From a virus: a stretch of DNA of 23,441 nt. Positions 1-21,243 of the stretch are shown piece after piece; the first letter of the stretch is position 1; the number at the start of each line of letters is the position of its first letter. Under the pieces are notes generated by a model that ran no database searches, had not been told where the DNA came from, and worked only from the letters and a program-made list of their open reading frames with translations. Location of the stretch: positions 1-23,441 of the IMG/VR virus record IMGVR_UViG_3300032456_000020, one strand, 5' to 3'. The translations under genes were made by a program, and so were the position numbers.

Positions 1-309
1 CTCAGCGATGTAAGCGCGATCGCGTTCCTTTTGGGATGGAGGACGATATTCAATATCGCTATAATTGCGATCGCCCGTGAGTACCCGCCGAGATGCAATA
101 CCGCTATCTTGTGCATCCGTTTCACTTTCGTCGAATGTGCGATCGCATCGGTTAAGCAGCTTCACCGCCTGGGCAATCCATTGCACCGTGCGACTGTTAT
201 CATTCAATGCCGCCCTGAGAATCACCTCATCGCCAAACGGAACCGCCCGACTGGTATAGCCCAGATGGATTTTAGCCCGTTCTTCATCGACAAAGAGCAG
301 CATCGGCAT
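1..309 (-). CDS. Head-tail connector-region protein, partial copy cut by the window edge
   Basis: This is the left copy of the complete 132-residue gene at 22522-22920. Its ATG at 309-307 overlaps the preceding gene's stop codon (TAATG), and it runs off the window at base 1 after 103 codons. Compared with the other copy it has several substitutions, for example SDIEYRPPSQKERDRAYIAE where the other has SDVEFRAPSQKERDQAYIKE. Position downstream of capsid genes suggests a connector or completion role, which is inference. In the circular reading this is the same locus as the right-hand copy, sampled from another variant. Confidence 0.8.
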   Translation of the reverse strand, partial: MPMLLFVDEERAKIHLGYTSRAVPFGDEVILRAALNDNSRTVQWIAQAVKLLNRCDRTFDESETDAQDSGIASRRVLTGDRNYSDIEYRPPSQKERDRAYIAE

Positions 310-581
310 TAAGTGACCACTCCATCTTTATCTAGCGGTATCCGTTTGCCGCTTGCTTTTGGTGCAGGTGGGAATTTATTAAAGCTGATTTCGTGGGGTT
401 CAATGAAGTCAGGCAACCCAGCAACATCGCCTTTTGGCTGATAGCAAAGCACCATACCAGAGTTATTCAGCAAAACATCTGCTTCAATCTTTTCACCCTT
501 ATAGAACAACTGATCTAAGGGAACATCGACCGAGAAATCACCAAAATAATCAGGGGTCAAAATAATTGGCGATCGATTCAT
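309..581 (-). CDS. Small virion-region protein, 90 residues (left copy)
   Basis: The protein starts MNRSPIILTPDYFGDF and carries the segment LFYKGEKIEADVLL. I recognise no family. It lacks a signal peptide or membrane segment and looks like a compact soluble protein. Its start overlaps the stop of the 201-residue gene by four bases (ATGA), and its own stop overlaps the next start (TAATG), so translation is coupled across three genes. The second copy at 22920-23192 differs at four residues (N2K, N40G, V88A, T90I). Position after the capsid gene suggests a head-completion or decoration role; this is inference. Confidence 0.85.
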   Translation of the reverse strand: MNRSPIILTPDYFGDFSVDVPLDQLFYKGEKIEADVLLNNSGMVLCYQPKGDVAGLPDFIEPHEISFNKFPPAPKASGKRIPLDKDGVVT

Positions 582-1183
582 AGCAAATCACTCCGATAAA
601 TAATATTTAATTCACGTTCCTGTTCATGCGATAGCAAAATGCCATCATCCACCGTAGGGGCACCCACAAGCATTTGAAACACAACCCGCACATCGACCCG
701 CACTGGACGAATTTGAGGCGAGTTTGGCGGCGCAACCGTCGCACCTACGGGCGATTGGTTAGTTCCTTGCAGTGTCCGAGTCCCAGGATCAATATTGCCA
801 GCATGCAAAAACAGCTTAGGGCTGAAGTTGGCAATTAGGGTTTCATTAGATATCTGCTGCACTCCTTGATCTTGTAAGAATCCATTAGTACCAACCTGCA
901 AGGATTGACAAACGTACGGTTGCACATCGGCAAAGCTAGCAGCAACTTTCAAGCGATCGCCAGGGGTACCAACACACGGGTTGTACACCGTAAAGGCAAG
1001 GTCGCGAATTCGTTTCCCTGCACTCACCTGCAAAGGTTGATTGGTGCTGTCTAGAATTGCCCACTCTTTCGCGGGTCTACCGATAAGAGCAACGCCATGC
1101 CAAATCACAGTGATCCAGCCCGGATCGGCTTGCACCATTCCGACGTTATTGCCATAAATGACATTACCTAGGTTCTGTGGCAT
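578..1183 (-). CDS. Virion-region protein of unknown function, 201 residues
   Basis: This gene begins nine bases after the capsid gene, with a strong purine-rich ribosome site (AAGGGGGGACT before ATG), which fits high expression. The protein is rich in beta-forming residues (ITVIWHGVALIG, RVDVRVVFQMLVGAP) and has a Pro/Asn/Gly-rich middle. Its last part, VDDGILLSHEQERELNIIY, looks helical. Position and apparent expression fit a capsid decoration, connector or tail-completion protein, but no family was recognised. The C-terminal 83 codons recur at 23189-23441, with one residue change (SHEQE/SREQE). Confidence 0.85.
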   Translation of the reverse strand: MPQNLGNVIYGNNVGMVQADPGWITVIWHGVALIGRPAKEWAILDSTNQPLQVSAGKRIRDLAFTVYNPCVGTPGDRLKVAASFADVQPYVCQSLQVGTNGFLQDQGVQQISNETLIANFSPKLFLHAGNIDPGTRTLQGTNQSPVGATVAPPNSPQIRPVRVDVRVVFQMLVGAPTVDDGILLSHEQERELNIIYRSDLL

Positions 1184-1192
1184 AGTCCCCCC

Positions 1193-2284
1193 TTAGTTTG
1201 CAAATGTACGCATTTCAATCGAAGTGCCTGAAAATTCGTCATCGTCCAACATATATTCGTATTCACCAAACATTTGCCAGATAAAAAACTCATGCCGCTG
1301 ATAGTCACGACCTTCATAATTACGCACGTTGGGACCGCGATCTGCAACCACCTGACCGACCGTACCAGGTCCAAAAGCCAAGGCTAAATAGGCGCGTTGA
1401 ACGCCGTTGGCTGTGGTAATCAATTTGGTGGGCAAAGTATTCGTAACAAATATCTCAAAGTTTTCATAGATGTACACCACTGGAGGCGGCGAATCAGCAA
1501 CAGGACCCAACCCAGTTGACCTCATCCCACCAGTAATAGGAGGGCTAACCACCGGGGACAGAGACTGGGGGTTACCGCCCTGAATGATGGCGATCGCAAA
1601 CTGTTGAAACTCAGGATCTTCTCGCAAATGCCGCATCCAGCGTTCATCTGCCACAATCCGGCGTTTGCCATTTGCGAAGAATCCCGTATTCATCCGAGAT
1701 AGTTGTTCATTTATCCGACGCAGATCAGATACCGAAGTTTTGTCAGTATTGAGTACGTTTGCATCAGTTTTGGCACCAGGATTATATTTAAAGATGCAGC
1801 GCATGACTTCCATAGCTAGGATGCGATCATCCAATCTGGCATAGTCATCCGATAGCAGCATGGAGCCAATCGACTGATGGAATTCCGTTAAACCGCCAAC
1901 AGAATCATTCCTCCTAGCCCTCTGCCAAAGGGCGTTAACCGCGAAACGCATACTCGCTTCAGTGATGTGCAGACACGCAGGCAGACCATCAAGCGTAGAA
2001 GGTCCAGTAAATTCTTTAACTTTCACTTGCCTGATTTTAGGATCGACTGAAACTGTCCGATTTGTGCCAATAATTTGATCCTCTTCACGGGTTCTTTGCT
2101 GTTTGGATAGACCGCGATCGCCCAAAGTAGGGAACCGCTTAAGCTGGGCATATTGACCCAGCGTTACATTCGGGTCCCAGATTGGCTGCACCTCCAGCGC
2201 CCGGCGCATTTGGTAAAAGCCCGTGCGAGTTTGCAGCAAGCTAGAAAGTAAAACCTCTGGTTCGTATCCGGTTGTTTGTGGCAT
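1193..2284 (-). CDS. Probable major capsid protein
   Basis: This 363-residue protein lies directly after portal and scaffold-candidate genes, the canonical position for a major capsid protein, and has a typical size. A segment around residues 200-225 (NGKRRIVADERWMRHLRED) resembles the region of phage coat proteins where a subunit surface is described as 'grr.ivv...w'. The N-terminal part (MPQTTGYEPEVLLSSLLQTR) resembles capsid N-arms, and the acidic C-terminus contains YMLDDDEF. The internal stretch PPITGGMRSTGLGPVADSPP looks like an exposed loop. The fold, HK97-like by expectation, was not tested. The following gene starts nine bases downstream. Confidence 0.72.
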   Translation of the reverse strand: MPQTTGYEPEVLLSSLLQTRTGFYQMRRALEVQPIWDPNVTLGQYAQLKRFPTLGDRGLSKQQRTREEDQIIGTNRTVSVDPKIRQVKVKEFTGPSTLDGLPACLHITEASMRFAVNALWQRARRNDSVGGLTEFHQSIGSMLLSDDYARLDDRILAMEVMRCIFKYNPGAKTDANVLNTDKTSVSDLRRINEQLSRMNTGFFANGKRRIVADERWMRHLREDPEFQQFAIAIIQGGNPQSLSPVVSPPITGGMRSTGLGPVADSPPPVVYIYENFEIFVTNTLPTKLITTANGVQRAYLALAFGPGTVGQVVADRGPNVRNYEGRDYQRHEFFIWQMFGEYEYMLDDDEFSGTSIEMRTFAN

Positions 2285-2288
2285 TTAG

Positions 2289-2939
2289 TTAATACTGGGG
2301 TGGAAGATATTGAGCAAGATTCTGCAAAATGCCAGCGGCTAACACATCAGAAGGGATCTCATTTGCAGCAGCCAGCATGGAGCCATCAGGAGGGTTAAAC
2401 CCGGCTGCAAGTCGGTTTAGCGCGTCTTGATGATCTAGCTTAGTAGGTGCAGGCTGACCAGGCGCAGGGGGAAACTGGGGACGCTGCTCGGCTAGCTGTT
2501 GATCAAATGCCGCTAAAGTTTGCGATCGCGTTTCTGGGTTCATAATTGCCGCTAAAAACTGGTTGTATTCATCTTGTGTATTGAGCAGTTCACGGTTAAG
2601 CCCTGATAAACTCAGCCCCTGATCTGACAAATATTGATCATTTTGCGGGAACCCATTCGCGTCAAGATCTGCGTCTACCTGATCCGCGATCGAAGAGGTT
2701 GAGGATGGGGGAGCGGCTGAGGTCGAAGAAGCCACGGTCACGAGAGGTTGATCCAGGGTCGGGGATGACTGCGGGTTCGACTGGCTGATCCGCCCTAGTA
2801 GGTTGTTGATCGTTTCTTGATACCACCGGGTCGGGGTTCCCGCGTCGGGCACGGTTGACGGCAGCGGCGACGGCAGCGGGTTCAAACCGCCCGGAGTTTC
2901 CGGCAGATTCGTTGGGGATTGAGGTAAATTCACGTCCAT
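2289..2939 (-). CDS. Scaffold or head-morphogenesis protein candidate, overlapping the portal gene
   Basis: The ATG at 2939 gives 216 residues; an in-frame ATG at 3002 would give 237. The first half is Pro/Ser/Thr-rich and predicted disordered. The second half is acidic and Gln/Ala-rich (ETRSQTLAAFDQQLAEQRPQ) and ends in PPQY. A disordered, helix-containing protein coded between portal and capsid is what scaffolds usually look like. The first 278 bases are also read in another frame as the C-terminus of the portal. No protease motif was seen. A portal-scaffold fusion by frameshifting is a possible alternative. Confidence 0.6.
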   Translation of the reverse strand: MDVNLPQSPTNLPETPGGLNPLPSPLPSTVPDAGTPTRWYQETINNLLGRISQSNPQSSPTLDQPLVTVASSTSAAPPSSTSSIADQVDADLDANGFPQNDQYLSDQGLSLSGLNRELLNTQDEYNQFLAAIMNPETRSQTLAAFDQQLAEQRPQFPPAPGQPAPTKLDHQDALNRLAAGFNPPDGSMLAAANEIPSDVLAAGILQNLAQYLPPQY

Positions 2940-4362
2940 AAGATAAAGCGTTAAGGATAAAGGGTATGAAAGCTTCGGCAATCGTGCCGCCAGTGTTGGC
3001 ATCCACGTAGGGCAAACCGTTGACTGGATTGATCAAAGTTTGGTTTGCCTGTGCAAACATCTGTATAACTTGAGTCAGGTAGCGGATAGGTATGCCGCCA
3101 CTGCCGACCATCATGTCGATTTCCGATTCTGTTTTGTCGGGGAAGATCCATTTCATTGTTTCTTTTGAATTTACGCCAACCTCAGTTAAATTACGCCCAA
3201 CAATCGATCGCTGTAAGGTATCTTGAGCCGTAGGCATAAATACTGCACCAATCCGATAGTTCACACTGCGATCGCCCAGAAATGGTAAACCTTGTCTTCC
3301 CGCAGTAGCAATAAATAACGCCTCTTCAGCCAGCAACGCCATAGCAAACAGTTCACATAGCCCATATTTAAATAGTGCTGCCTGCTTCAGCTTTGCCGTG
3401 GCAATAACCTTGCCATAGACAACCCGCGATTCTGTAGCCGTTTCGATGCCTCGCTCAAGGATACCGCCTAGCGCCTCTCTTAGCTGTTGCTCATACTGGT
3501 CAGAAAACTTTTGATGATCCGTTGGCACCGGATTGATTTGCAGTTGCTCCAGGCGATCGTCATTTTCAAAATCGCCGAACACTTTTTTTAGCTTGCGATG
3601 TTTCCTGATCGGAGGCACAGCGGCGGAACTGAAGCCACTAGCATAAGCAACCGAGTTACGGTCATTCGTTGCAGTGTCATACATGCCGCTATACACTGAC
3701 TCAGCACTTTTGTTTGTAATCAGCGGGTTATAGCAAAACTCTAGAATTTTCTCCACAATGCCGCTGGTGACTTGCTCATGGATATCTAGATGAGATTGAA
3801 TCTGCTCAAAATCACTTTCTCCCAAATTGCCGCCAGCAGGAGGAGGATTCAACACCTCAACATAGGGCAAGTAGCCCAGGGGATTTTCAACGGGGGGCAC
3901 TCCAGCCGGGATTTCCTGATCCAAGTCTGGCTTATTGTCTGATATCGCTGATTCAATTAAGGCAGATGTCACGCGCTGGCACACCCACTTAAGCTTAGGC
4001 GGACTACCCGGCTCGACTGCTTTGTAGGAATAGCAGTATTTCACCGCTGATATATCACCATACTGATCCTGTTCGATTCGATAGCAATCAGGCGTGTAGT
4101 GACGAATCCGGTAAGGCACCCGGTGACTATAGCCATTGGGGTATAGCTCCAGCAATAGCCGCCCTTTGCCGATCATATGGCTGATCATTTGCGGAATCGT
4201 TAGCTCTAACCGGTTACCCGATATCAGCTTTGATAAGAACGTAGCCCTCACACCATTTTCGTCCAGCGCCGGGATGAATTCTACCCCAGTGCCACGGACA
4301 AACGTCACCATCTGCTGATAGTGGTTGATACGTATTTGGGACTCTTGAGATTCAGCGGACAT
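2662..4362 (-). CDS. Portal protein
   Basis: This 566-residue protein follows the large terminase by 26 bases. Portal-like features include the clip/stem-like stretch PLGYLPYVEVLNPP followed by a helix containing FEQIQSHLDIHEQVTSGIVE, and a long helical region LREALGGILERGIETATES. Late in the protein SKETMKWIFPDKTESEIDMM resembles portal wing segments. It forms the dodecameric ring through which DNA is pumped by the terminase. The last 90 or so residues are Pro/Arg/Asp-rich, end in RRRS, and overlap the scaffold-candidate gene in another frame. That tail looks disordered and may not be part of the core fold. Confidence 0.8.
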   Translation of the reverse strand: MSAESQESQIRINHYQQMVTFVRGTGVEFIPALDENGVRATFLSKLISGNRLELTIPQMISHMIGKGRLLLELYPNGYSHRVPYRIRHYTPDCYRIEQDQYGDISAVKYCYSYKAVEPGSPPKLKWVCQRVTSALIESAISDNKPDLDQEIPAGVPPVENPLGYLPYVEVLNPPPAGGNLGESDFEQIQSHLDIHEQVTSGIVEKILEFCYNPLITNKSAESVYSGMYDTATNDRNSVAYASGFSSAAVPPIRKHRKLKKVFGDFENDDRLEQLQINPVPTDHQKFSDQYEQQLREALGGILERGIETATESRVVYGKVIATAKLKQAALFKYGLCELFAMALLAEEALFIATAGRQGLPFLGDRSVNYRIGAVFMPTAQDTLQRSIVGRNLTEVGVNSKETMKWIFPDKTESEIDMMVGSGGIPIRYLTQVIQMFAQANQTLINPVNGLPYVDANTGGTIAEAFIPFILNALSYGREFTSIPNESAGNSGRFEPAAVAAAVNRARRGNPDPVVSRNDQQPTRADQPVEPAVIPDPGSTSRDRGFFDLSRSPILNLFDRGSGRRRS

Positions 4363-4388
4363 GGCAAGACGAAAAGGTTTGTTTAATC

Positions 4389-5789
4389 CTAAGCGAAACT
4401 TGGCGATCGCTTGCCTTTCTTCAGCAAACTAGCCAATGCAATCACGCAGGCATCAGCGAGATCATCATGCTCTAAGTCCGTTCTTAAAAGTTCCGACACT
4501 AAGGAAGTCATAGGGCGATCGCGATTCAAGATGACCAAGCCATTAGCAAAAATGCCGCTAATCCCCTCTAACCGCTGGTCTTTGTCACCTTTTGGGATGT
4601 ACTCACCGCAATGCCAGCTTAACCGCCGTCGTTTCATTTCATCGCGCCAATCCCCAGCAAAACTAGCTTGGTAAGCAACCCGCTCAACTACCATTTTAAA
4701 CTGTCCATATTGTTTTCTTAATTCGCAGATACGGCGGATTTTTTCTAGGTTGCCAGCCATGCGATAGCGCAAAGCCTCCACCACATAATAGAGGTTACCG
4801 ACCCGCCCGATTAATACCATTGCTGTGTAATCACCTTTCTCCTTCTCACTGGCAGCGAGATCCACGCCCATTAGTAGCTCATCAAAGGCAGTAGGCACCA
4901 CCCCATATTTGATCCACTCTGCTTTAATGATCGCTTCATCATCATTGGGCGGGATGACGTTTTGAAATTGGTAAGCAAAGGTGATCGGGTTCTGCTGCTG
5001 CAAATTCTCTAGGAATTCTAGGCTAAAGCGATCCGCCCAGTAGCTCCGACCTTCCACGATCGCACTTTGTTCGATTAACTTCCAGCCCTGGTCAACCGTA
5101 AACTTGGTAGCGTGTAGGTCATCACGCCGGAATCGTGTTCCAATGTTCCTGACTCTGCCACCCGGAATCAAAGTCGGCATAATCACCTCGTCAATGTTGA
5201 TGATCAGCTTTTCGCGGATTTCTGGGTTTGCGATCGCCGCGCTGGATTTAATTAAGTCATCAAATAAAATCAGGTCAGATCGGCGGCTAGTAATACTGCC
5301 CAGGGCACCCACCCCATAAAAGGTATAGTCGCTATCTAGGCTAGTCACCCCGGCTCGTGACTTATCAATCTCCCAATCTGTGTCACTCCAGCGGGAGCCA
5401 GGGCGAATATGCGGGAATACTTCTTGGTACCGTTTGGACTCAAGCAACCGCTTCACTAAGCGACTCTGTTTTAGTGCAACGCTTTCGCTATAGCCAACGT
5501 AGATGATCTGAATATCAGGCGCTCTACCAATCTCCCAAGCTGCATCTAGCGCTAGCCAGGTACTCTTAGCACTCCCGCGAGGCGACAGGATAGATACTTT
5601 TTCATCATCGCCACACAGCAGCGGCAACCATTCTTTGTGATGATCTGCCGGAATTTTGCCAGCGACATATTCACCGAAAATACCAAGGTCATCCCGCGCG
5701 GCAACCGCTTGCAAGGTGATCTGTTGCCGCGCTGTTCGGGGTTGACGAGTTCTATATCGGCTTCGAGTATAGTCTACTAGAACGGGCAT
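4389..5789 (-). CDS. terL: Terminase large subunit (DNA-packaging motor)
   Basis: The 466-residue length is typical of TerL. The Walker A motif is SPRGSAKST (residues about 69-77). Walker B is LILFDD (about 173-178), and the coupling motif is GTRF (about 217-220). The C-terminal RNase H-like nuclease has its first acidic residue in LLMGVDLAAS (D310), then GDYTA (D320) and a late acidic cluster HDDLADACVIAL. All expected ATPase and nuclease elements are visible, so it is probably active. It starts three bases after the endolysin stop and is followed by the portal gene, forming one leftward late operon. Confidence 0.95.
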   Translation of the reverse strand: MPVLVDYTRSRYRTRQPRTARQQITLQAVAARDDLGIFGEYVAGKIPADHHKEWLPLLCGDDEKVSILSPRGSAKSTWLALDAAWEIGRAPDIQIIYVGYSESVALKQSRLVKRLLESKRYQEVFPHIRPGSRWSDTDWEIDKSRAGVTSLDSDYTFYGVGALGSITSRRSDLILFDDLIKSSAAIANPEIREKLIINIDEVIMPTLIPGGRVRNIGTRFRRDDLHATKFTVDQGWKLIEQSAIVEGRSYWADRFSLEFLENLQQQNPITFAYQFQNVIPPNDDEAIIKAEWIKYGVVPTAFDELLMGVDLAASEKEKGDYTAMVLIGRVGNLYYVVEALRYRMAGNLEKIRRICELRKQYGQFKMVVERVAYQASFAGDWRDEMKRRRLSWHCGEYIPKGDKDQRLEGISGIFANGLVILNRDRPMTSLVSELLRTDLEHDDLADACVIALASLLKKGKRSPSFA

Positions 5790-5792
5790 TAA

Positions 5793-6476
5793 TTAACCCA
5801 AGACAGCAGATGCCCTGGCATAGTAGGCAATGCGATCGCTCAATCCATTGATCTCACCCGCCCCACCACCGAGATTGACCATGCGAGAGATTTGCTCCAC
5901 ACTATCACCGCGATCGCATCTTGCATTCATGCCATTGATCATCCACCAAAATCCTGATGCTGTACCGGGATAGGTTTCAGCGACGTATGGACACCCTAAA
6001 TCATAGATTTTAGGATCGCCCATGTAATTAGCAAAAGCTAGATAATTCTCTGGCATAGACATTTGGAGCCACCCAGCCCCACGATACATATATTTACCGT
6101 CTACATCTACCACCATGGGCAGCTTAAACTTTTTTGGGATATACCAACCAGAATTAATTTCTTTGGTATGTCGCAACCCCCCCGATTCATGCCCGATCTG
6201 AGCAAGAAAGTGTCGCATCCTCCGGGTAGTATTTATCTCGAACCGCTCAAGGCAAGCGTTGAGGTCAAAAAGTTGAAGTGATGTAGGCGATCGCCCAAAG
6301 ATTGCAGTTGCTTGGTGCATAGAAATGATCGGAGCCGGGTCATTACGCCACAGTTCAGCGAAACGGTTTAGCGCTTCAGCCGGGATCTGAGTCTGAAGGT
6401 AAGCAAGCGCCGCGACTTGATGCGGTTTGGCTATGTAGAAACGGGCAACGTCCGTCAGTTTGATTGATTTGGTCAC
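5793..6476 (-). CDS. GH19-family endolysin with an N-terminal cell-wall-type module
   Basis: I chose the GTG at 6476 because GAGG lies six bases upstream; an in-frame ATG at 6512 would overlap the preceding gene by 35 bases. This gives 227 residues. Residues about 4-44 form a module (KLTDVARFYIAKPHQ...FAELWR) seen again in the gene at 18582-18926. The rest is a GH19 chitinase/lysozyme domain: FLAQIGHESGGL with the catalytic Glu, then YMYRGAGWLQMSMPENYLAF matching the family's 'RGRGLIQLTGR.NY' motif, and FWWMINGMNARCD. It should cleave peptidoglycan glycan strands at lysis. Its location between the two terminase genes is unusual. Confidence 0.85.
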   Translation of the reverse strand: MTKSIKLTDVARFYIAKPHQVAALAYLQTQIPAEALNRFAELWRNDPAPIISMHQATAIFGRSPTSLQLFDLNACLERFEINTTRRMRHFLAQIGHESGGLRHTKEINSGWYIPKKFKLPMVVDVDGKYMYRGAGWLQMSMPENYLAFANYMGDPKIYDLGCPYVAETYPGTASGFWWMINGMNARCDRGDSVEQISRMVNLGGGAGEINGLSDRIAYYARASAVLG

Positions 6477-6477
6477 T

Positions 6478-7032
6478 TTACACCTCACTTTCCAGTTTTG
6501 CGATCGCGCCATCCAGCACAGCCTTAATCACGTCGTAAGATTCGGTATCTCGGCTGAGGTTGAGCAATAGCTCTGCCAAGCGATAGCCGCCGCTTAGGAT
6601 TAGGGCTTTGCGGTCTTGCAATCGTTGCGTATTGTGCAGCGATTGGGCACTCTGGCGCTGTTCACGCAGTAGGTCTACCAAGTTACTCAGCAGCGACGGC
6701 GAAAAATCGCGGACGTTAATAATGTTGTTGGCAATATTGCTGGTTATCTTGACCACAATTGCCAAGCTAGCAGCATGGGCATCCACACAGTTAATCCCGT
6801 TTGCCTCAGAAATCAGCGCATTTACACAAACAGCTTCAATCCCTGCCGGGTATTCTCGGTTGTACCAAGTCAGGACGCTATCGTAGCTCAGGGCAGGCGC
6901 ATGCTGCAAAAGCCAGCGGTGAATGTCGGTTGCGTTGGCATGTTGGATGCAGAGCGATCGCAGATAGTCTCGCTGTTCGGCAGATAGCTTGGCGATCGCT
7001 TTATCTGCGTTTGTTTGAGGAGTTCTAGGCAC
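6478..7032 (-). CDS. Terminase small-subunit candidate
   Basis: This is the first gene of the leftward late operon, 184 residues, starting MPRTPQTNADKAIAKL. Its N-terminal 70 residues look like a helical DNA-binding domain (RDYLRSLCIQHANATDIHRW, then DSVLTWYNREYPAG). The remainder is helical, with LLSNLVDLLREQRQSAQSL and a final amphipathic helix. Size, helix-turn-helix-like start and location just ahead of TerL (with the endolysin between) fit a TerS that recognises the packaging site. I see no family-specific motif, so this is inferred from context. It could also be a late regulator. Confidence 0.5.
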   Translation of the reverse strand: MPRTPQTNADKAIAKLSAEQRDYLRSLCIQHANATDIHRWLLQHAPALSYDSVLTWYNREYPAGIEAVCVNALISEANGINCVDAHAASLAIVVKITSNIANNIINVRDFSPSLLSNLVDLLREQRQSAQSLHNTQRLQDRKALILSGGYRLAELLLNLSRDTESYDVIKAVLDGAIAKLESEV

Positions 7033-7325
7033 TTTGGCTCAGATTATGGGTGGGTTATTGGCAGGCATACCAACAATCTATTCTATGGTTCCCAGCCACC
7101 AACCCCGATCACCAGAATTCTGGGGGCGATTTGGGTTGGGGCAGGCGCGAGGCATTTCGATGACATATACACACGCCCAGGCGCAAAACAAAAAAAAAGG
7201 CATCGCTGGTAGAACGGTGCCCTGTTCGGTGTCTGTTGCGATTATTACGATCGCAGTTTCATTATGTCATCCAACAATCATGCGGCAATAGGGTAGTCTG
7301 AATGGGCAAGCTACGTTGAGGCACT
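7033..7325. other. Divergent intergenic region, 293 bp
   Basis: It separates the leftward late operon from a rightward gene pair and should hold the late promoter. It contains a perfect 12-bp palindrome CCAGAATTCTGG (7112-7123) and a run of nine A (from about 7190). No convincing -10/-35 pair was seen on either strand. A plus-strand reading frame at 7046-7291 is open, but the product has no recognisable feature and I do not call it a gene. Confidence 0.5.
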
Positions 7326-7751
7326 ATGCAAGTCTTAATCCCTGATTTTCAAGAATATTCTATCGCGCTTAATCCTGACAACCCAATGGATGGAACGCGG
7401 CGACTGAGGGTGGTATGCCGCGAGACTAGTCAGGTTTCTGATGGATACCACACGTTTGATGAGCTGTACAAACATCGCCATTTGTTGTTCTTTGCCTTGC
7501 TTATCCAACACAGTTCAAACGCATATAAGAGTCGCCTGCACTATGACGGATCAAGTTACGAAGGCTGGTTTATTGCAGGGTGTGATTTATTCACAGAGCC
7601 TATTGCATATCATCTGCCCAATTCTATATGGGATTTATGCCCCGTCCGTACAGTTGAACGCGCTCCAGAATGGGACGGACACACGAGTAATGATCTAGTC
7701 GATCACGTAGAGACTTGGCTTAGTCGGTTCACCGCATCTACCCGGCAGTAG
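7326..7751 (+). CDS. Conserved phage protein with SDGYHTFDELY...WDGHTS motifs (copy 1)
   Basis: This 141-residue protein contains VSDGYHTFDELYKHRHLLF (about residues 36-54), then SRLHYDGSSYEGWFIAG, AYHLPNSIWDLC and APEWDGHTSND. I recognise this motif order from hypothetical proteins of many phages and prophages, where the WDGHTS box is the most constant part. The function is not known to me. The conserved His and Asp residues hint at catalysis or metal binding, but this is inference. GAGG four bases before ATG gives a good ribosome site. It is the first member of a tandem pair and lies opposite to the surrounding late genes. Confidence 0.85.
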   Translation: MQVLIPDFQEYSIALNPDNPMDGTRRLRVVCRETSQVSDGYHTFDELYKHRHLLFFALLIQHSSNAYKSRLHYDGSSYEGWFIAGCDLFTEPIAYHLPNSIWDLCPVRTVERAPEWDGHTSNDLVDHVETWLSRFTASTRQ

Positions 7752-7785
7752 GGTAGTCTGGGTGGGCAAGCTACGTTGAGGCACT

Positions 7786-8208
7786 ATGGAAGTCTTAATC
7801 CCTGATGTTAAGGAATATACTGTCAACTTTGATCCTTACAAACAGGATGGAGAGCGACACCTAAGAGTGGTATGCGGCGAGACTGGTCAGATTTCCGATG
7901 GATACCACACATTTGATGAGTTGTATGAACACCGCCATTTGTTGTTCCTTGCCTTGCTTATCCAGCACAGTTCAAGCACGTATAAAAGTCGTCGGCACCA
8001 CGACGGCTCAAGTTACGGCGGCTATTTTATTGCAGGGTGTGATTTATGCCCAGGGATTATTACATATCATCTGCCCAATTCTATGTGGGATTTATGCCCC
8101 GCCCCTGAGATTGAATACGCTCCAGAGTGGGACGGACACACGAGTAATGATGTATGCGATCGCTTGAGAGATTGGGTTAGTCGGTCTGCACCATCTACCC
8201 CGCAGTAG
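7786..8208 (+). CDS. Conserved phage protein with SDGYHTFDELY...WDGHTS motifs (copy 2)
   Basis: A 140-residue paralogue of the preceding gene, with the same leader and ribosome site. It keeps ISDGYHTFDELYEHRHLLF, RHHDGSSYGGYFIAG, TYHLPNSMWDLC and APEWDGHTSND. Differences concentrate in the first 30 residues, the loop after IAGCDL, and the C-terminal 20 residues. All the invariant positions of the family remain in both copies, so neither looks degenerate. Its end overlaps the end of the convergent minus-strand gene by 14 bases. The function is unknown. Confidence 0.85.
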   Translation: MEVLIPDVKEYTVNFDPYKQDGERHLRVVCGETGQISDGYHTFDELYEHRHLLFLALLIQHSSSTYKSRRHHDGSSYGGYFIAGCDLCPGIITYHLPNSMWDLCPAPEIEYAPEWDGHTSNDVCDRLRDWVSRSAPSTPQ

Positions 8209-9313
8209 GGGTCATACCGGGACGCGCCGAGTTGAACACAGACAGCGCCGCCTTTCTTGCTTTCTTCCTTAAGTCTTCTTCTGCATTGGTTGCAATCTGT
8301 GGGCGATCGCGTTCCAGTTGTCGGGCACGATCGTCACCAGCAATTTTGGCAGCTTGACGGGCAGCGCTAGCAGTGTTGTTCTCTCGTGCGATCGCCAGCG
8401 CCGGGTTATCCTGTGGATTGCTGTAATCGGTGATACGGGTGCTAGTGCTAGTGCTGGTGCTGGTGCTAGTGCCTGTTCTGAGGTTTGATGTAGCAGCGCC
8501 GCCGCCTGTTGTACCTGTAGTGAAGCCAGTCGATCGCCCCGCTTCTTGAAGCACCATACGAGCGGAACCACCAGACATTGTGCGAGGAGAACCAAATGGG
8601 TTAGACAGTTCATTGCGTTTCTGCTGTGCGTCAGCCTGCAAGTTAGCCTGAGAGTTAGCCTGATCGGTTCCAGTCCGCCTGGTATCGGAAGCTTTAGCAA
8701 GCGCAGCCAAACCCGCAGCACTGACCTTAGCATTAGCATTAGCAGTAGCGGAACGTTCCCTAGAAGCATCTGATCGCGCCTTAGAATCCGAGCCGATCCG
8801 AGCCGCAACAATACGAGCCGCCGCCGCCGCCCGACCGTCACCGCGAGTAGCGCCAGATGAACTAGATGAGCCACTCTTTTTAGACCCTGCCACCTTTTCA
8901 CGCGATCGGGCGTTAAGGGTAGCAATACGTTCCTTAGATGCATTGGTTTCACGCGATCGCTGGAGTGATGTATCAGGCTTGCTTGACTTACTTTGTTGCC
9001 TTGAATATGCAGCGGAATCTTTCTGTCTTTGTAAGGAGCTTTGGGCAGCACTACGCCCCGTGATCGCCGCCTTATCCCGTGCGATCGCATTACGGTTACT
9101 GTCATTATCTCGCTGCTTACGAAGATCAGCATCGACCTGTTGAACACGTCTGTAATCGCGAATTTGATCACCCACCGGATCTTTTGAAGCGGGGACAAAA
9201 GCGGGAGGGCGATTCGGGTTAGGACTGTCACTAGTCCCAGAGATGCCCGCATTAAAAGAAGCCATGGGCGCTTTAGTCGGGCTTTGTTTTGCCTTTGCCT
9301 TTGCCTTTGTCAC
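8195..9313 (-). CDS. Basic, disordered low-complexity protein; possible internal virion protein
   Basis: This 372-residue protein starts MTKAKAKAKQSPTK and is dominated by Ala, Ser, Arg, Lys, Thr, Gln and Asn, with few aromatic or large hydrophobic residues. It includes runs such as KKSGSSSSSGATRG and a (TS)n tract coded at 8441-8472. One segment (QIRDYRRVQQVDADLRKQRD) and the C-terminal NAEEDLRKKARKAALSVF look helical. The start overlaps the upstream gene's stop by four bases (ATGA). Highly basic, disordered proteins next to lysis or tail genes can be internal or ejected virion proteins; that role is a guess here. Confidence 0.75.
   Translation of the reverse strand: MTKAKAKAKQSPTKAPMASFNAGISGTSDSPNPNRPPAFVPASKDPVGDQIRDYRRVQQVDADLRKQRDNDSNRNAIARDKAAITGRSAAQSSLQRQKDSAAYSRQQSKSSKPDTSLQRSRETNASKERIATLNARSREKVAGSKKSGSSSSSGATRGDGRAAAAARIVAARIGSDSKARSDASRERSATANANAKVSAAGLAALAKASDTRRTGTDQANSQANLQADAQQKRNELSNPFGSPRTMSGGSARMVLQEAGRSTGFTTGTTGGGAATSNLRTGTSTSTSTSTSTRITDYSNPQDNPALAIARENNTASAARQAAKIAGDDRARQLERDRPQIATNAEEDLRKKARKAALSVFNSARPGMTPTAG
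8441..8472. repeat. Hexamer microsatellite (GCTAGT/GCTGGT)
   Basis: About five tandem copies of a 6-bp unit, GCTAGT or GCTGGT, on the plus strand code for the Thr-Ser tract of the minus-strand disordered protein. The unit length keeps the frame, so copy number can vary without breaking the gene. Confidence 0.85.
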
Positions 9314-9633
9314 TGGTGACTCCCCCGGCGATTAAATTGAGTGGTTTTAGCTAGAAATTCTTCCATATCTTCAATCCTGCCAAGGGAGCGATCGCCCGTG
9401 CTAATGAAGCGGGTAGACTTATGTTCAATCACTTCACGCAGTCCATTCGTTGTCAAATCAAGCTTATCTTCCAAATAGATTAGCCGAGTTTGTAGGACCT
9501 GATATTGGTGTTCTAAAGCCTGAAGCTGGTCATAGACCTTTTCCCTGACAGCAAAGATTTTCCAAATTAGCACCAAGATCGGGATGGAGAAGGCGACAAA
9601 GGTAAGAAATTCTTTGATAAAGATAGGTGACAT
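9310..9633 (-). CDS. Membrane-anchored coiled-coil protein; holin or lysis-accessory candidate
   Basis: This 107-residue protein has one N-terminal membrane segment (FLTFVAFSIPILVLIWKIF, about residues 9-27). A long heptad-like helix follows (EKVYDQLQALEHQYQVLQTR...YLEDKLDLTTNGL), then an acidic/polar tail with MEEFLAKTTQFNRR. This one-helix-plus-coiled-coil arrangement is seen in some phage holin or XhlA-like lysis proteins and in cyanobacterial phage hypotheticals. It lies between the L,D-transpeptidase-like gene and the disordered protein, overlapping the latter by four bases. A spanin-like or virion role is possible. No second membrane segment is seen. Confidence 0.8.
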   Translation of the reverse strand: MSPIFIKEFLTFVAFSIPILVLIWKIFAVREKVYDQLQALEHQYQVLQTRLIYLEDKLDLTTNGLREVIEHKSTRFISTGDRSLGRIEDMEEFLAKTTQFNRRGSHQ

Positions 9634-9640
9634 TTTAGAT

Positions 9641-10135
9641 TTACATTTGGTTAACGGTGATCCACATCTTTGATCCGCTTTTAATCAGCTTTTCGAGCAA
9701 TGGCACCACAATTGTTTCCAAATCGCCATTATGCGATCGCACACAGCCCAGCGTAACAAGCAGCGGTTGCTTATCTGCCAGCGGGTTAGGCGCATCCGAT
9801 CCGCCCCCATGCCAGCAGATACCGCCGCGATTATGTTGACGCTCTTGATTTTCTTGCTCAACCATATCGATACAATGCTTTCCAAATGACAGCCAAGTTT
9901 TAGTCGGCTCAGATGGCTGAGTAACAAACAACTCTCCAGCTAGGTATAGCCCCGGTGGAGTATCACCGTTTCGCGCTTGCCACCTAGAACCACTCACACC
10001 TTTACATAATGCTGGAATAGTCCACAGCAGCAAGCCTTTAGCGGAATAACATTTTGCTTCGCCAACCCAGCGAGACTCCCAATCGTTGATCACCACATGA
10101 ACATCACCAGGTTTCAAGTCAGGGCGCTTAGACAT
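9641..10135 (-). CDS. L,D-transpeptidase (YkuD-fold)-like protein; possible peptidoglycan-acting enzyme
   Basis: The 164-residue protein begins MSKRPDLKPGDVHVVIND. It carries YSAKGLLLWTIPALCKG, GDTPPGLYLAGEL, ICWHGGGSDAP and VTLGCVRSHNGD. The pair HGG ... GCxR is the YkuD signature, in which the Cys of GCVR is the nucleophile and His of HGG is catalytic. The GDTPPG segment matches the family's 'TPxGxY' strand. Such enzymes form or cut peptide cross-links in peptidoglycan. There is no signal peptide, so export would need a holin or virion delivery. The ribosome site is GGAG five bases before ATG. It heads a three-gene leftward cluster. Confidence 0.75.
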   Translation of the reverse strand: MSKRPDLKPGDVHVVINDWESRWVGEAKCYSAKGLLLWTIPALCKGVSGSRWQARNGDTPPGLYLAGELFVTQPSEPTKTWLSFGKHCIDMVEQENQERQHNRGGICWHGGGSDAPNPLADKQPLLVTLGCVRSHNGDLETIVVPLLEKLIKSGSKMWITVNQM

Positions 10136-10216
10136 ATTGTCTCCAAAAGTTTAGTATTCCCTGAATAATTCGGTAATTACGATGATTCACCCGGCAAAGC
10201 TTATTTGAGAAAATAG

Positions 10217-10242
10217 AACCCCCAGCGGCAAGGCTGGGGGTT
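10217..10242. terminator. Strong hairpin; terminator or leader structure
   Basis: Perfect 10-bp inverted repeat AACCCCCAGC / GCTGGGGGTT with a 6-base loop GGCAAG. On the minus strand it is followed by CTATTTTCTC, a weak T-rich tail. On the plus strand there is no T run, and the hairpin lies 23 bases before the start of the secreted mini-protein gene. It may separate the divergent units or act in the plus-strand leader. Confidence 0.6.
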
Positions 10243-10265
10243 GAATGTAAACCAATTGAGTCACT

Positions 10266-10382
10266 ATGTTTAAAATTTTACTGCTAATGCTGCTGGTTTT
10301 GCCAGTGGTTAGCTTGCCTGATCAAGCCCAAGCCGGAAGGGATGGGGCACCAAGCGGTAGAATCGGAGGTGGAACCCGGTAG
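10266..10382 (+). CDS. Secreted mini-protein with GGGTR motif, 38 residues
   Basis: The short frame begins MFKILLLMLLVLPVVSL, a textbook hydrophobic signal sequence, and has a likely cleavage site after AQA (residues 21-23). The mature peptide would be only 15 residues: GRDGAPSGRIGGGTR. A G.P..R.GGGTR pattern occurs in exported cyanobacterial proteins (for example DUF928-type), from memory rather than a search. I see no lipobox Cys. The gene sits alone between a hairpin and the next plus gene. It may act as a periplasmic peptide, or could be a decayed N-terminus of a larger secreted protein. Confidence 0.6.
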   Translation: MFKILLLMLLVLPVVSLPDQAQAGRDGAPSGRIGGGTR

Positions 10383-10414
10383 TAGCGATCGCCTATAACT
10401 TTAGTGGAGGACTT

Positions 10415-10651
10415 ATGGCTCAGTTTAGGAAAAAGCCTGTAATTGTTGAAGCGGAGCAGTTTCTTTATGAACAAGACCCAAAAACTTATCCTCCAGATAT
10501 GCAATGGTCAGACGAGCATGAGAGTTACACAATTCCAACGCTGGAAGGAATTTATGTTGTCAGCGACAAGGACTGGATTATTACCGGAGTTAAGGGCGAA
10601 CGTTATCCCTGCAAGCCTGAAATTTTTGAATTAACCTACGAGCCAGCATGA
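10415..10651 (+). CDS. Conserved small phage protein (FRKKPVIVEA...YPCKPEIFE type)
   Basis: This 78-residue protein begins MAQFRKKPVIVEAEQF and ends DWIITGVKGERYPCKPEIFE. I recognise this arrangement from small hypothetical proteins common in phages and prophages of many hosts, where the start 'FRKKPVVIEA' and the 'GDW/YIITGVKGE.YPCKPDIFE' box are constant. The biochemical function is unknown to me. A strong ribosome site GGAGG precedes the ATG by four bases. The frame stays open for about 67 further codons after the TGA stop. Confidence 0.9.
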   Translation: MAQFRKKPVIVEAEQFLYEQDPKTYPPDMQWSDEHESYTIPTLEGIYVVSDKDWIITGVKGERYPCKPEIFELTYEPA

Positions 10652-10953
10652 GCAAGAGCCGCTAACGCGATATGCGATCGCTGGGGTACACCACACAGGG
10701 CAAGGCAAGTATACGCGATTAGGAATCCGGCAAAGGGCGGCGTTACGGTCGCTACCTATCAAGGCTGTGGCGAAATCATTAGCGTGGTGCAGTCCGCTCT
10801 CTACACTTGCAAGTCACGGCAGGCGGAGCAAAGTCTAGGGCGAAATCAAGGTTAAGTGCCGCCTCGTGCCGTGCCCCTTCTGCCTATTCTCTGGGGTGAA
10901 GTCAAAGTCAAGGTAGCCGCGTCAGGAGAGCCTGTCCTGTTTTGGTGTTTGTC
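10652..10953 (+). other. Region after the conserved small protein: in-frame open stretch without a start
   Basis: After the TGA at 10649-10651 the same frame continues open to a TAA at about 10853-10855. It encodes segments such as VYAIRNPAKGGVTVATYQGC and GEIISVVQSALYTCKSRQAE, which look protein-like, but there is no ATG, GTG or TTG in a sensible place. It could be a decayed second gene, a readthrough extension or chance. The remaining part to 10953 contains an AGGAG at 10924-10928 that may serve the GT-rich gene that follows. Confidence 0.35.
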
Positions 10954-11217
10954 ATGGCTGTTTTGTCTTGTTCGTCGGTTTCTGGTTCGTGGTCGTTGGG
11001 TCGGGCGTTTGGTTGTCCGGGTCTGTGGTCGTTGCGTTGTCCGTTGGGCGCTGAGCATCGGGCTGCGGCTCGGCTGTCTGCGTTGGGCTTGGTTGTGGCT
11101 TCGTCGTCGGGCTGTGGGGTTGGGGCTGGTTCGTTTGGTCTGGTGCTGTTCTCGGCTCCTCGGTCTGCGGCGGCGGCGTTGCGGTCGGTGTCTGCTGGGG
11201 TTGCGGCGGCGGTCTAG
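10954..11217 (+). CDS. GT-strand-biased gene 1, unknown protein of 87 residues
   Basis: The frame MAVLSCSSVSGSWSLG...VSAGVAAAV is rich in Ala, Ser, Val, Gly and Leu. The coding strand has only four A in 264 bases, and codons end almost always in G or T. In-frame TTG (10942) and GTG (10945) starts are alternatives; an AGGAG at 10924-10928 is rather far from all of them. A canonical terminator with a TTCG tetraloop lies 11 bases past the stop, supporting rightward transcription. The complementary strand is also open and encodes a Pro/Thr/Gln-rich sequence, which I take as a by-product of composition. No family was recognised. Confidence 0.5.
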   Translation: MAVLSCSSVSGSWSLGRAFGCPGLWSLRCPLGAEHRAAARLSALGLVVASSSGCGVGAGSFGLVLFSAPRSAAAALRSVSAGVAAAV

Positions 11218-11228
11218 TGGCTTTGGTG

Positions 11229-11257
11229 GGGGGCTTCGGCTCCCTGCCCTTTTTTTT
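11229..11257 (+). terminator. Rho-independent terminator with TTCG tetraloop
   Basis: Stem GGGGGC / GCTCCC (one G-T pair) closed by a TTCG loop, then TGCCC and eight T (11250-11257). It begins 11 bases after the stop of the first GT-rich gene. The tetraloop and T run make this a convincing plus-strand terminator. Confidence 0.85.
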
Positions 11258-11466
11258 GCGTGGAAGCAAAGACTGGGATAAACGCCACTCCATTGCGATC
11301 CGTTCACTGTTCCGGCTTGCTGCACTCCCTCCGCTTGAGGCTACGGTCGGTTCCGCTACACCTCCACGGGCGCTCTCTCCATCTCCATTCCGCTTAGTCT
11401 GTGATCTGTCAGAACAGCCGCTCTCGTTCGTGTCGCTAGCACTTGCTCACTCCGAGCTATACAGCC

Positions 11467-11495
11467 AACCCGGAAACCCGGAAAGAGAACCCGGA
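11467..11495. repeat. Three direct AACCCGGA repeats
   Basis: AACCCGGA occurs at 11467-11474, 11475-11482 (abutting) and 11488-11495. They lie in the 383-bp gap between the first GT-rich gene's stop and the second gene's start, about 75 bases upstream of a TATAAT box. They may be protein-binding sites. The rest of 11258-11567 holds no gene I can support. Confidence 0.6.
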
Positions 11496-11567
11496 GGAAC
11501 AGGAGAAATGCTTGTTTTTGGGAAAAAGTCAAGGGTGTTTTGGCGGTTTCTTTTGCACTCAGTTTAC

Positions 11568-11603
11568 GGTATAATTACCTTATGTTGTTGGTTTTTACTC
11601 ATG
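11568..11603 (+). promoter_or_regulatory. Promoter and short leader (TATAAT type), copy 1
   Basis: A perfect TATAAT (11570-11575) sits in GGTATAATTACCTTA, followed by GTTGGTTTTTACTCATG, with ATG at 11601. The same block recurs at 11983-12017 before another gene, with nearly the same TATAAT-to-ATG distance (25 against 24 bases after the box). No good -35 was seen, so an activator may be needed. The leader of about 20 bases contains no Shine-Dalgarno sequence. Confidence 0.7.
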
Positions 11604-11879
11604 CTGTCTGCTCTTCCTGCTGGTTGTTTTGCTGCCCCTGCTTCCTCGCGCTGGTCTGGCTATGTGGTTTTGGTTGTTCCGGTCAGTGGCGGCACTATTG
11701 GCGCGGCGCTTAAGTCGCTTAGCTGTTCGCTTATGGCGGCTCAGTGTTCCTCCCTCTGTGGCGGTTTCTACGGGGTTTTGGTGCAGTGCCCTAGGCGTGT
11801 TCGTTGGGCGTTGCTTTCCTTACCCCGCCCGGTTGCCGCTGGTTCTTTGGGCGTGGCGGCTTGCTTGCCTTGGCTCTAG
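11601..11879 (+). CDS. GT-strand-biased gene 2, unknown protein of 92 residues
   Basis: I chose the ATG at 11601 because the matching leader copy at 11983-12017 also ends in an ATG. The protein begins MLSALPAGCFAAPASSRW and contains YVVLVVPVSGGTIGAALKSL, with seven Cys. A makes up about 5% of the coding strand (15 of 279 bases), and codons end mostly in G, T or C. The stop is 22 bases before a strong terminator, so this is a complete promoter-gene-terminator unit. VVPVSGGTIGAAL could be a strand-loop-helix of a nucleotide-binding fold, but that is speculation. No family was recognised. Confidence 0.6.
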   Translation: MLSALPAGCFAAPASSRWSGYVVLVVPVSGGTIGAALKSLSCSLMAAQCSSLCGGFYGVLVQCPRRVRWALLSLPRPVAAGSLGVAACLPWL

Positions 11880-11901
11880 GGGGGCGGCTGCGCCACCCCA
11901 C

Positions 11902-11929
11902 AGCCTCCAAAGTTGGGGGCTTTTTTTTG
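11902..11929 (+). terminator. Rho-independent terminator after GT-rich gene 2
   Basis: Stem AGCCTCC / GGGGGCT (one T-G pair), loop AAAGTT, then eight T. It begins 22 bases after the stop of the gene at 11601-11879. A second small GC-rich hairpin-like stretch (GGGGCGGCTGCGCCACCCC) lies between. Confidence 0.85.
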
Positions 11930-11945
11930 TGTAAAGTTAGGATAA

Positions 11946-11999
11946 ATTAAGGTAAATTTGCCCCAATTAACCCGCTAAGTAGGGTATAATTACCTTAAT
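11946..11999. promoter_or_regulatory. Candidate operator: 10-bp inverted repeat flanking a promoter
   Basis: ATTAAGGTAA (11946-11955) and its exact reverse complement TTACCTTAAT (11990-11999) are 34 bases apart. The right arm overlaps the last base of the TATAAT box (11985-11990) and covers the likely transcription start. This layout fits a repressor that binds both arms, perhaps with looping. The right arm (TTACCTTA) is also present at the first promoter copy, but no left arm was found there. Confidence 0.6.
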
Positions 12000-12017
12000 G
12001 AGTTGGTTTTACGCATG
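11983..12017 (+). promoter_or_regulatory. Promoter and short leader (TATAAT type), copy 2
   Basis: GGTATAATTACCTTA at 11983-11997, then GTTGGTTTTACGCATG ending at the ATG of the next gene (12015). It matches copy 1 at 11568-11603 over the whole block with few changes. The two genes share no protein similarity that I can see, so the promoter-leader moved or was conserved independently. Confidence 0.7.
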
Positions 12018-12224
12018 GCTTCTCTCGATCAAGGTTTCTACTTTCAGCATTTACGGGCAAACCCAATCACAGCCGAGTATTACGCCGTTGCTGCAAAGTT
12101 TCGTGATTTATTCGGCATCAAAATCACCTGCTATGTGATCGAGTGGCGCAAGTTTGCCCACTGCTACTGGGTTCACATTCCCGGCTGTCGTCCTCGGTTT
12201 GTTTCCTTCAATTCAATCAAATAG
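12015..12224 (+). CDS. Unknown small protein, 69 residues
   Basis: The ATG at 12015 is chosen by analogy to the duplicated leader. The protein starts MASLDQGFYFQHLRANPITA. It has a helical middle (EYYAVAAKFRDLFGIKI) and an aromatic, Cys/His-containing end (WRKFAHCYWVHIPGCRPRF). Composition is normal, unlike the GT-rich gene before it. No Shine-Dalgarno sequence is present, so translation may be leaderless-like. I recognise no family. Confidence 0.65.
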   Translation: MASLDQGFYFQHLRANPITAEYYAVAAKFRDLFGIKITCYVIEWRKFAHCYWVHIPGCRPRFVSFNSIK

Positions 12225-12230
12225 CAAAAT

Positions 12231-12256
12231 CCCCAGAGCAGTTAGCGGCTCTGGGG
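12231..12256. other. Intergenic hairpin
   Basis: A perfect 9-bp inverted repeat CCCCAGAGC / GCTCTGGGG with an 8-base loop lies seven bases after the stop of the previous gene. There is no T run after it, so it is not a classic terminator. It precedes the ribosome site of the gene at 12294 and may protect or process the mRNA. Confidence 0.7.
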
Positions 12257-12293
12257 CATTCGTCCCCAAAGCAAGAAAGGAGATATACAGATT

Positions 12294-12566
12294 ATGGACT
12301 ACCTAGAAGTCAATCAACCCGGCGAATTGATCGAGAAGGGACTACAGCAGGCACTAGAGCAGGCGCACACGCGGGACGGAACCATGGACGCATATTACAG
12401 CGATTCACCTGAGAAAAAAGATCCAGCTTATCTAGATGGTTATTTGGCGGAGATCAGGCGGCGAGTAGAGGCAGGCGAACGCCTAGAGATTAGATGGTTC
12501 TCTGAATCCTTCAAGAGCGGAGCATATGACGCGCCCGACTGGTTCAACGACGGAGAGGGATTTTGA
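12294..12566 (+). CDS. Unknown acidic protein, 90 residues
   Basis: The protein starts MDYLEVNQPGELIEKGLQQA and is strongly acidic, with AYYSDSPEKKDPAYLDGYL and RRRVEAGERLEIRWFSES, ending APDWFNDGEGF. AAGGAG lies 12 bases before the ATG, a rather long spacing. It has no signal peptide or membrane segment. The stop overlaps the next gene's ATG by one base. Short acidic early phage proteins often bind and inhibit host factors, but nothing here points to a partner. Confidence 0.75.
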   Translation: MDYLEVNQPGELIEKGLQQALEQAHTRDGTMDAYYSDSPEKKDPAYLDGYLAEIRRRVEAGERLEIRWFSESFKSGAYDAPDWFNDGEGF

Positions 12567-12784
12567 TGAGAAATAAGGAGAAAACCGTGAAATTTGAAGT
12601 TGCTAATAACTGGATTTTCTCTAAGAGAGATCTTGCAAATCACGTACTCACATCAAGCGATCGCATCCGTCCTGATGCGTGGATCTTCGACTTTGAAGCC
12701 CAGGCGGCATGGGCAGCAGCAAGGCTAAACAAAACAGAAGCAAAGCACGGGCGCATATATGCCGTCGCTTGCATCATCAATTAA
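12566..12784 (+). CDS. Unknown small protein, 72 residues
   Basis: An ATG at 12566 overlaps the previous stop and has GAGGG six bases upstream. An internal GTG at 12587 has an even better site (AAGGAG, six bases) and would give 65 residues starting at KFEVANNWIFSKRDL. The C-terminal part, WIFDFEAQAAWAAARLNKTE, is helical. No family was recognised. It is followed, nine bases after the stop, by the first of three repeated leader elements. Confidence 0.7.
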   Translation: MRNKEKTVKFEVANNWIFSKRDLANHVLTSSDRIRPDAWIFDFEAQAAWAAARLNKTEAKHGRIYAVACIIN

Positions 12785-12792
12785 GCCAACAA

Positions 12793-12816
12793 GCGCACAG
12801 CCGGGAGTAGCGCCCC
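12793..12816 (+). repeat. Repeated leader element, copy 1 of 3
   Basis: The core contains CAGCCGGGAGTAGCGCCCC and lies 43 bases before the ATG of the gene at 12836. Other copies are at 13022-13045 and 13255-13278. The hairpin GGG / CCC is weaker here than in the other copies because CCCCTATC replaces CCCCGGTA. Confidence 0.85.
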
Positions 12817-12835
12817 TATCTACAGGTTTCTAATC

Positions 12836-13015
12836 ATGCAAATTTACAAGATTTATCCCGACTATCTCGATATTAGCTGTAACGGAAGCCGAAACCTGAT
12901 CGCCCGTTATTGCAGCATTTACGAGTATCACGCCAACGCGACTAGTTTCTCATCAAGCCAGTACAAGCTAAGCACCCAATGGGAGCAATGGGGTAAAGAG
13001 CTAGCCAAGCTTTAA
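12836..13015 (+). CDS. Unknown small protein, 59 residues
   Basis: This gene follows leader element copy 1. The protein starts MQIYKIYPDYLDISCNGSRN and ends QWEQWGKELAKL. It is rich in Tyr and Ser, with two Cys, and has neither signal peptide nor membrane segment. No Shine-Dalgarno sequence is visible before ATG. The neighbouring genes share the same leader but not the protein sequence. I recognise no family; the gene is supported by its position between two leader elements and by balanced composition. Confidence 0.6.
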   Translation: MQIYKIYPDYLDISCNGSRNLIARYCSIYEYHANATSFSSSQYKLSTQWEQWGKELAKL

Positions 13016-13021
13016 CCACCC

Positions 13022-13045
13022 GCGCACAGCCGGGAGTAGCGCCCC
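13022..13045 (+). repeat. Repeated leader element, copy 2 of 3
   Basis: The core is identical to copies 1 and 3, and is extended by GGTATTCA, shared with copy 3. The arms CCGGG (13031-13035) and CCCGG can pair around AGTAGCGC. The ATG of the next gene lies 49 bases from the core's start. Confidence 0.88.
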
Positions 13046-13070
13046 GGTATTCACAAGAGCAAGGCTAATC

Positions 13071-13244
13071 ATGTCGAAGATTATTATCACGATCAACACA
13101 GATAACGCAGCGTTTGACGACGAAGACGAACTTAGACGCATCCTTAAAGAGTTATCCGAAAGGATAGAAATTAGCGACTTTCCCACGATGTTAAGGGATA
13201 TAAACGGGAACTACGTTGGAAGTATTGAATACGTCGAAGACTAA
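13071..13244 (+). CDS. Small conserved phage-type protein, 57 residues (INTDNAAF...LRDINGN)
   Basis: The protein starts MSKIIITINTDNAAFDDEDE, continues LRRILKELSERIE and ends TMLRDINGNYVGSIEY. Small proteins with 'I.T.NAAF.D...E..RIL..LA.RL' and a final 'DINGN.VG' segment are common in phage and plasmid genomes, from memory. Their role is not established to my knowledge. The gene is preceded by leader element copy 2 and followed, 10 bases after its stop, by copy 3. Confidence 0.75.
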   Translation: MSKIIITINTDNAAFDDEDELRRILKELSERIEISDFPTMLRDINGNYVGSIEYVED

Positions 13245-13254
13245 CGCAGACCCC

Positions 13255-13278
13255 GCGCACAGCCGGGAGTAGCGCCCC
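13255..13278 (+). repeat. Repeated leader element, copy 3 of 3
   Basis: The core is identical to copy 2, extended by GGTATTCA. The next ATG is 45 bases from the core's start, with AGAGG as ribosome site. Spacing between the three copies is 229 and 233 bases. Confidence 0.88.
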
Positions 13279-13299
13279 GGTATTCAAGAGGAAACCAAG

Positions 13300-14210: not shown

Positions 14211-14232
14211 CCTTAGAAGTAGAGGCAAAACC

Positions 14233-14499: not shown

Positions 14500-14570
14500 G
14501 CACAGGTTACTCAAATGGAAAGGCTTACACGCTGCGGAGTGGAGACTGTGAAGTTAGGCATTACAGCGCA

Positions 14571-17868: not shown

Positions 17869-18029
17869 CTGATCAACTCGCCAAAGAATTAGCCGAGGAA
17901 GCAATCGAGGTGGTGTTTACGACTTTCTGGGCAAACAGCTTTAATAAAGCAGCCCTAAAAGACGCGATCGCCGCCCTTTTCAAGCATCATCTTACGAATG
18001 CCAAAGCGTTGAAAGAAGAGGTTAGCTAA
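17865..18029 (+). CDS. Micro-gene C, 54 residues
   Basis: The protein starts MTDQLAKELAEEAIEVVFTT and continues FWANSFNKAALKDAIAALFK. It looks like two amphipathic helices with Lys-rich ends. The ATG overlaps the stop of micro-gene B by four bases, and its stop overlaps the next ATG by one base. No family was recognised. Confidence 0.65.
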   Translation: MTDQLAKELAEEAIEVVFTTFWANSFNKAALKDAIAALFKHHLTNAKALKEEVS

Positions 18030-21241: not shown

Positions 21242-21243
21242 CG

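Follow-up and report, generated by a model that had tools for sequence, protein, structure and literature searches.

Does the near-repeat at the two ends of a viral contig mark a circular genome that assembly cut open, or a segment that the virus really carries twice? The window analyzed here, the whole 23,441 nucleotides of IMG/VR record IMGVR_UViG_3300032456_000020, raises this question through its first and last 830 bases, which the first-pass annotation, made from the letters alone, had described as gapless, 96% identical copies with 34 mismatches. Ungapped alignment of 1-830 to 22612-23441 bears this out (34 mismatches, 95.9% identity), and BLAST of 1-830 against the window's own record returned these two places only (1-830 and 22612-23441, E = 0). 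An exact terminal repeat was not found at any length from 11 to 400. The mismatches begin at position 4 and end at 716, leaving the final 114 bases identical, and fall from left to right as 10, 6, 2, 3, 5, 3, 4, 1 and 0 per 100 bases, agreeing with the earlier description of a pattern densest at the left and empty over the last 114 bases. When adjacent mismatches are counted as one event, giving 24 events, the first 54 bases hold 6 of the 24 (P of about 0.003 under an even spread), and the clean 114-base right end has P of about 0.03 by events and 0.006 by sites.

The answer we consider very probable is that the phage has a circular map of 22,611 bp, which the window covers once completely and then for a further 830 bases, the window's two ends coming from two strains. 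The genes at the ends fit together accordingly. All lie on the minus strand, and the reading frames are open in both copies. The left copy (1-830) holds a shortened gene A (1-309, cut by the window start), all of gene B (309-581, 90 aa) and the start of the shared part of gene C, and the right copy (22612-23441) holds the rest of gene A, gene B again whole (22920-23192, 90 aa) and a shortened gene C (23189-23440, cut by the window end). Thus gene A is whole only at the right (22522-22920, 132 aa; phrog_29158, annotated function unknown) and gene C only at the left (578-1183, 201 aa). It had been proposed that merging the copies would make the broken late operon gene-perfect; it does, since genes A and C are both whole in a sister contig described below. 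To the right of gene C on the window, also on the minus strand, lie a gene for a 363 aa product (1193-2284) that we infer to be MCP-like from its length and its place after the terminase and portal-like genes, then the genes for a portal-like virion structural protein (2662-4362; phrog_20475, E 2.8e-55) and the terminase large subunit (4389-5789; phrog_38, E 8.5e-80; PF17289). In a different frame, the gene at 2289-3002 shares 341 bases with the terminal part of the portal-like gene, and in its remainder 11 codons differ nonsynonymously and 2 synonymously from the sister contig.

To find independent assemblies of the same region, we searched the virus collection with the terminase (48 loci), gene C (1), gene A (1) and the MCP-like protein (2), which gave one sister strain and one looser relative. 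The sister contig, IMGVR_UViG_3300027823_000094 (L051; 16,774 bp), is about 96% identical to the window. Its positions 8248-9167 align to window 22522-23441 and its positions 1327-9077 to window 1-7754, so the 830-bp stretch, including gene B, occurs there once, continuing to window position 831 on one side and to 22611 and below on the other, and the junction is crossed from 22611 to 831. The looser relative, IMGVR_UViG_3300048597_000678 (G001, also L004; 22,551 bp), is roughly 70% identical to the window and has genes A, B and C once each, in order. Translated open frames show it to be colinear with the window from 19349-21313 (G001 251-1867) all the way round to 18026-18190 (G001 22321-22548); its ends fall about 1.2 kb apart on the window's map and have no repeat in common. 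The late gene that follows gene A across the junction (21244-22362, minus strand) keeps its order in G001 and in a further contig, L005. On the window's map, L051 is cut at about 9.45 and 14.7 kb and G001 at about 18.2 and 19.3 kb. These alignments indicate that the window, L051 and G001 are three linear cuts, at three places, of one 22.6-kb circle, as expected of a complete, circular-mapping genome: contigs assembled independently carry the stretch once and run through the junction, and the relatives are opened elsewhere. The earlier suggestion of a circle of about 22.6 kb assembled from two variants is supported by the same crossings.

Gene order was examined more widely by iterated HMMER searches over the open frames of the collected records, with slices, duplicate contigs and CRISPR loci excluded before counting. 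The searches recovered the MCP-like gene from 28 records, 16 of which also carry gene A; no record had gene A without the MCP-like gene. In every one of the 15 gene-A records other than the window, including the isolate S-EIV1, there is a single gene A, downstream of the MCP-like gene and sharing its strand. The window is the only one of the 16 with two copies, and gene A falls downstream of its MCP-like gene only when its ends are merged. Circular gene order and single copy hold in the relatives. Near-identical contigs are included among the 15 (for example, L008/L016 and L033/L037), so the number of independent lineages is smaller than 15. The searches did not detect gene A in the remaining 12 MCP-like records, many of which seem to be short or cut close to the MCP-like gene. 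One record, L071, has its terminase on the opposite strand, and a portal gene was not found in it.

These comparisons bear directly on the alternative offered in the first-pass annotation, a diverged duplication, in which the A-B-C region would truly be present twice, 22.6 kb apart, in a linear or larger genome. The window does have two copies that differ by 4%, but both are cut in mid-gene exactly at the would-be join, L051 and G001 pass through the junction and lack a second copy, and gene A is single in each of the 15 other records. Given that two copies occur in none of the relatives, we regard a real diverged duplication as highly unlikely. Some phages carry direct terminal repeats of hundreds of bases, which replication keeps identical. 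The existence of such repeats makes it conceivable that the window's ends are the true termini of a linear virion genome whose copies have since diverged, but that divergence is at odds with copies being kept identical, the repeat would have to begin and end within late genes, and L051 and G001 are continuous through the place; we consider this extremely improbable. A third arrangement, tandem prophages or a head-to-tail concatemer joining two strains in one molecule, with the contig covering one unit and a bit, would be indistinguishable in sequence from two strains of a circular genome. It requires an extra assumption, however, an integrase was absent from the proteins scanned, and host DNA was not seen at the ends, making it very unlikely as well. 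The circular map itself fits virion DNA that is circular, circularly permuted or terminally redundant alike.

The sister contig also helps to characterize the difference between the two copies. At the 34 mismatched sites, L051 agrees with the left copy 17 times and with the right copy 17 times, never showing a third base, and it has 13 private differences in the overlap, so that the left copy, the right copy and L051 are about equally distant from one another (34, 30 and 30 differences). The crowding of mismatches at the left contig end could point to a poor-quality end, one copy having accumulated sequencing or consensus errors. Indels and stops are absent, however, and errors would make L051 side with the other copy; the 17:17 split argues against either copy being just a faulty rendering of the other, and even in the first 54 bases L051 sides with the left at 5 sites and the right at 5. 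We give this explanation almost no credence. Both copies instead carry natural variants, and their divergence of 4.1% resembles that between the window and L051 (4.7%, 786 of 16,599 sites, with per-kb bins from 1.1% to 12.9%). By sequence comparison, the end copies resemble sequences from two strains within a single phage population, and the coexistence of at least two strains in the sample is the most likely cause of the repeat. We reject a mosaic reading: the interleaved pattern (17:17) carries no information on recombination between strains, since with only three sequences it consists of changes private to each branch (17 left, 17 right and 13 in L051).

Two features of the substitutions do not enter this argument. 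Adjacent mismatch pairs between the end copies number 10 against 1.4 expected, 9 of the 10 falling within one codon. The window and L051 also show an excess (119 pairs against 37 expected, a figure inflated by patches of 11-13% divergence), so it is not peculiar to the window's ends. Between the left and right copies, 13 codons differ nonsynonymously and 10 synonymously, whereas the window and L051 differ at 116 nonsynonymous and 233 synonymous codons (14 genes, gene A only partly covered). The contrast has a Fisher P of 0.039, but the samples overlap and the excess lies in gene A (9:2), and we do not claim diversifying selection in the overlap.

How would a circle leave such a contig? The CheckV (PMC8116208) and COBRA (PMC10914622) papers describe assemblers as breaking at path forks, a circular template leaving repeated sequence at the ends. 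For this window, the assembler would have opened the circle inside the late operon, between gene A and gene C, and taken the same 830 bp at the two ends from two strains about 4% apart; both strains would have been present in one sample, with branching of the assembly graph between them causing the break. A further suggestion was that the contig ends at the point where the two variant paths come together again. This is plausible for the identical right end, although we know of no assembler k-mer length that 114 matches. It does not suit the left end, which begins amid mismatches, inside the most divergent part, where a simple bubble offers no explanation.

The contigs with direct terminal repeats (DTRs) treated in PMC8116208 and PMC10914622 resemble the window in having repeated ends that derive from a circular template opened at an arbitrary point. 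They differ in that their repeat is short, of k-mer length, whereas the window's is 830 bp long and 96% identical. The CheckV screen requires an end repeat of 20 bp or more (PMC8116208); if this means exact repeats, as taken here, the window would escape it. With ends from strains about 4% apart, the repeat is inexact and the ends are not recognized as the same, and the record is classed as linear in IMG/VR: the repeat is long and inexact because two strains are involved, and hence is not counted as an end repeat. The end repeat is a known and ordinary assembly effect, not a real duplication, and what was filed as a linear fragment probably constitutes the whole of a compact phage genome. Screens for exact end repeats can accordingly miss complete genomes with circular maps when two strains assemble together.

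The window is a small, circular-mapping cyanobacterial virus. Its phage genes include an endolysin (phrog_181) alongside the terminase (phrog_38) and the portal-like virion structural protein (phrog_20475), and it contains 46 copies of GCGATCGC, which we take to be the cyanobacterial HIP1 site, where base composition predicts 0.36. No phage matched window 1-12000 by megablast. By terminase, the closest isolate is Synechococcus phage S-EIV1 (36.9%; GenBank KJ410740.1, a circular record of 79,178 bp; its paper is cited in PMC8790148), and the MCP-like protein likewise matched this phage record and no other, through hypothetical proteins at 26.2%. S-EIV1 shares homologous terminase, portal-like, MCP-like and A genes in the same order, which agrees with membership of its lineage. 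It differs in size, at 79 kb compared with 22,611 bp for the window's circle and 22,551 bp for G001, and its proteins are 26-37% identical to those of the window. In a 29-kb stretch of S-EIV1, BLAST (E 0.01) matched the terminase, portal-like and MCP-like proteins only, and gene A was recovered by HMM. Related terminases also occur on contigs as long as 60.5 and 76.8 kb.

Given closure at 22.6 kb and a contig about 70% identical with near-equal length and order, we tentatively propose a compact clade of S-EIV1-related cyanobacterial phages, which could combine the capsid and packaging block of the 79-kb phage with a small, largely unrelated early region containing a plasmid-like gene, either as a natural minimal version of the lineage or as an element dependent on a larger relative. 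Closing the circle fixes the size of one compact relative of S-EIV1. The plasmid-like gene is at 15318-16307: the N-terminal part of its protein matches hypothetical proteins on 10 cyanobacterial plasmids, and it is possibly a replication protein. A search for a solved structure for this protein found none (best E 0.016). Among the window proteins scanned, none matched an integrase or DNA polymerase, and the window contains no Rfam match and no tRNA. Elsewhere in the window, 14571-15269 encodes a pentapeptide-repeat protein (PF00805, E 1.4e-45), and 7283-8208 holds two adjacent gene copies (about 84%), the first with a WDGH domain.

One part of the map is covered among close strains by the window contig alone. 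Window 9454-14717 is absent from L051, and in G001 the homologues of the window genes ending at 9310 and 16304, the only ones there with G001 homologues, adjoin each other without the window genes between. A misjoin may lie inside 9454-14717; the similar length of G001 supports the size of the circle. Within this stretch, 10900-11900 has only 0-10% A over long runs, is rich in T and G, carries sites with a hairpin followed by a T run, and contains no convincing gene. GCGATCGC is absent between 10674 and 12657. A 35-base repeat occurs three times between small plus-strand genes (12790-12824, 13019-13053 and 13252-13286, the last two identical), and is perhaps regulatory.

Traces of hosts appeared in two settings. 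The MCP-like protein was matched in 2 of 386 cyanobacterial genomes, at 30-32%; in both, on a 74-kb contig (L070) and a 17.9-kb contig (L071), there are relatives of the terminase, MCP-like and A block, as proviruses, episomes or contamination. The other trace is at the end of L051, whose first 92 bases read as a repeat, spacer and repeat of a cyanobacterial CRISPR. The repeat had no exact 27-base match in genome_contigs, and its 29-base form was found in 0 of the 386 cyanobacterial genomes at up to 1 mismatch; a 24-base core occurs in five cyanobacterial stretches (one from Chamaesiphon, two from Leptolyngbyaceae, one from Microcoleus and one without a genus name). The spacer, at L051 22-57, matches window 15216-15251 without a mismatch; another starts at L051 93 and runs directly into phage sequence (window position 9451 or so downwards). 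The end of L051 probably arose during assembly, when a host array was joined to the phage contig by way of a spacer that matches it, which suggests that a cyanobacterium in that sample had been immunized against this phage.
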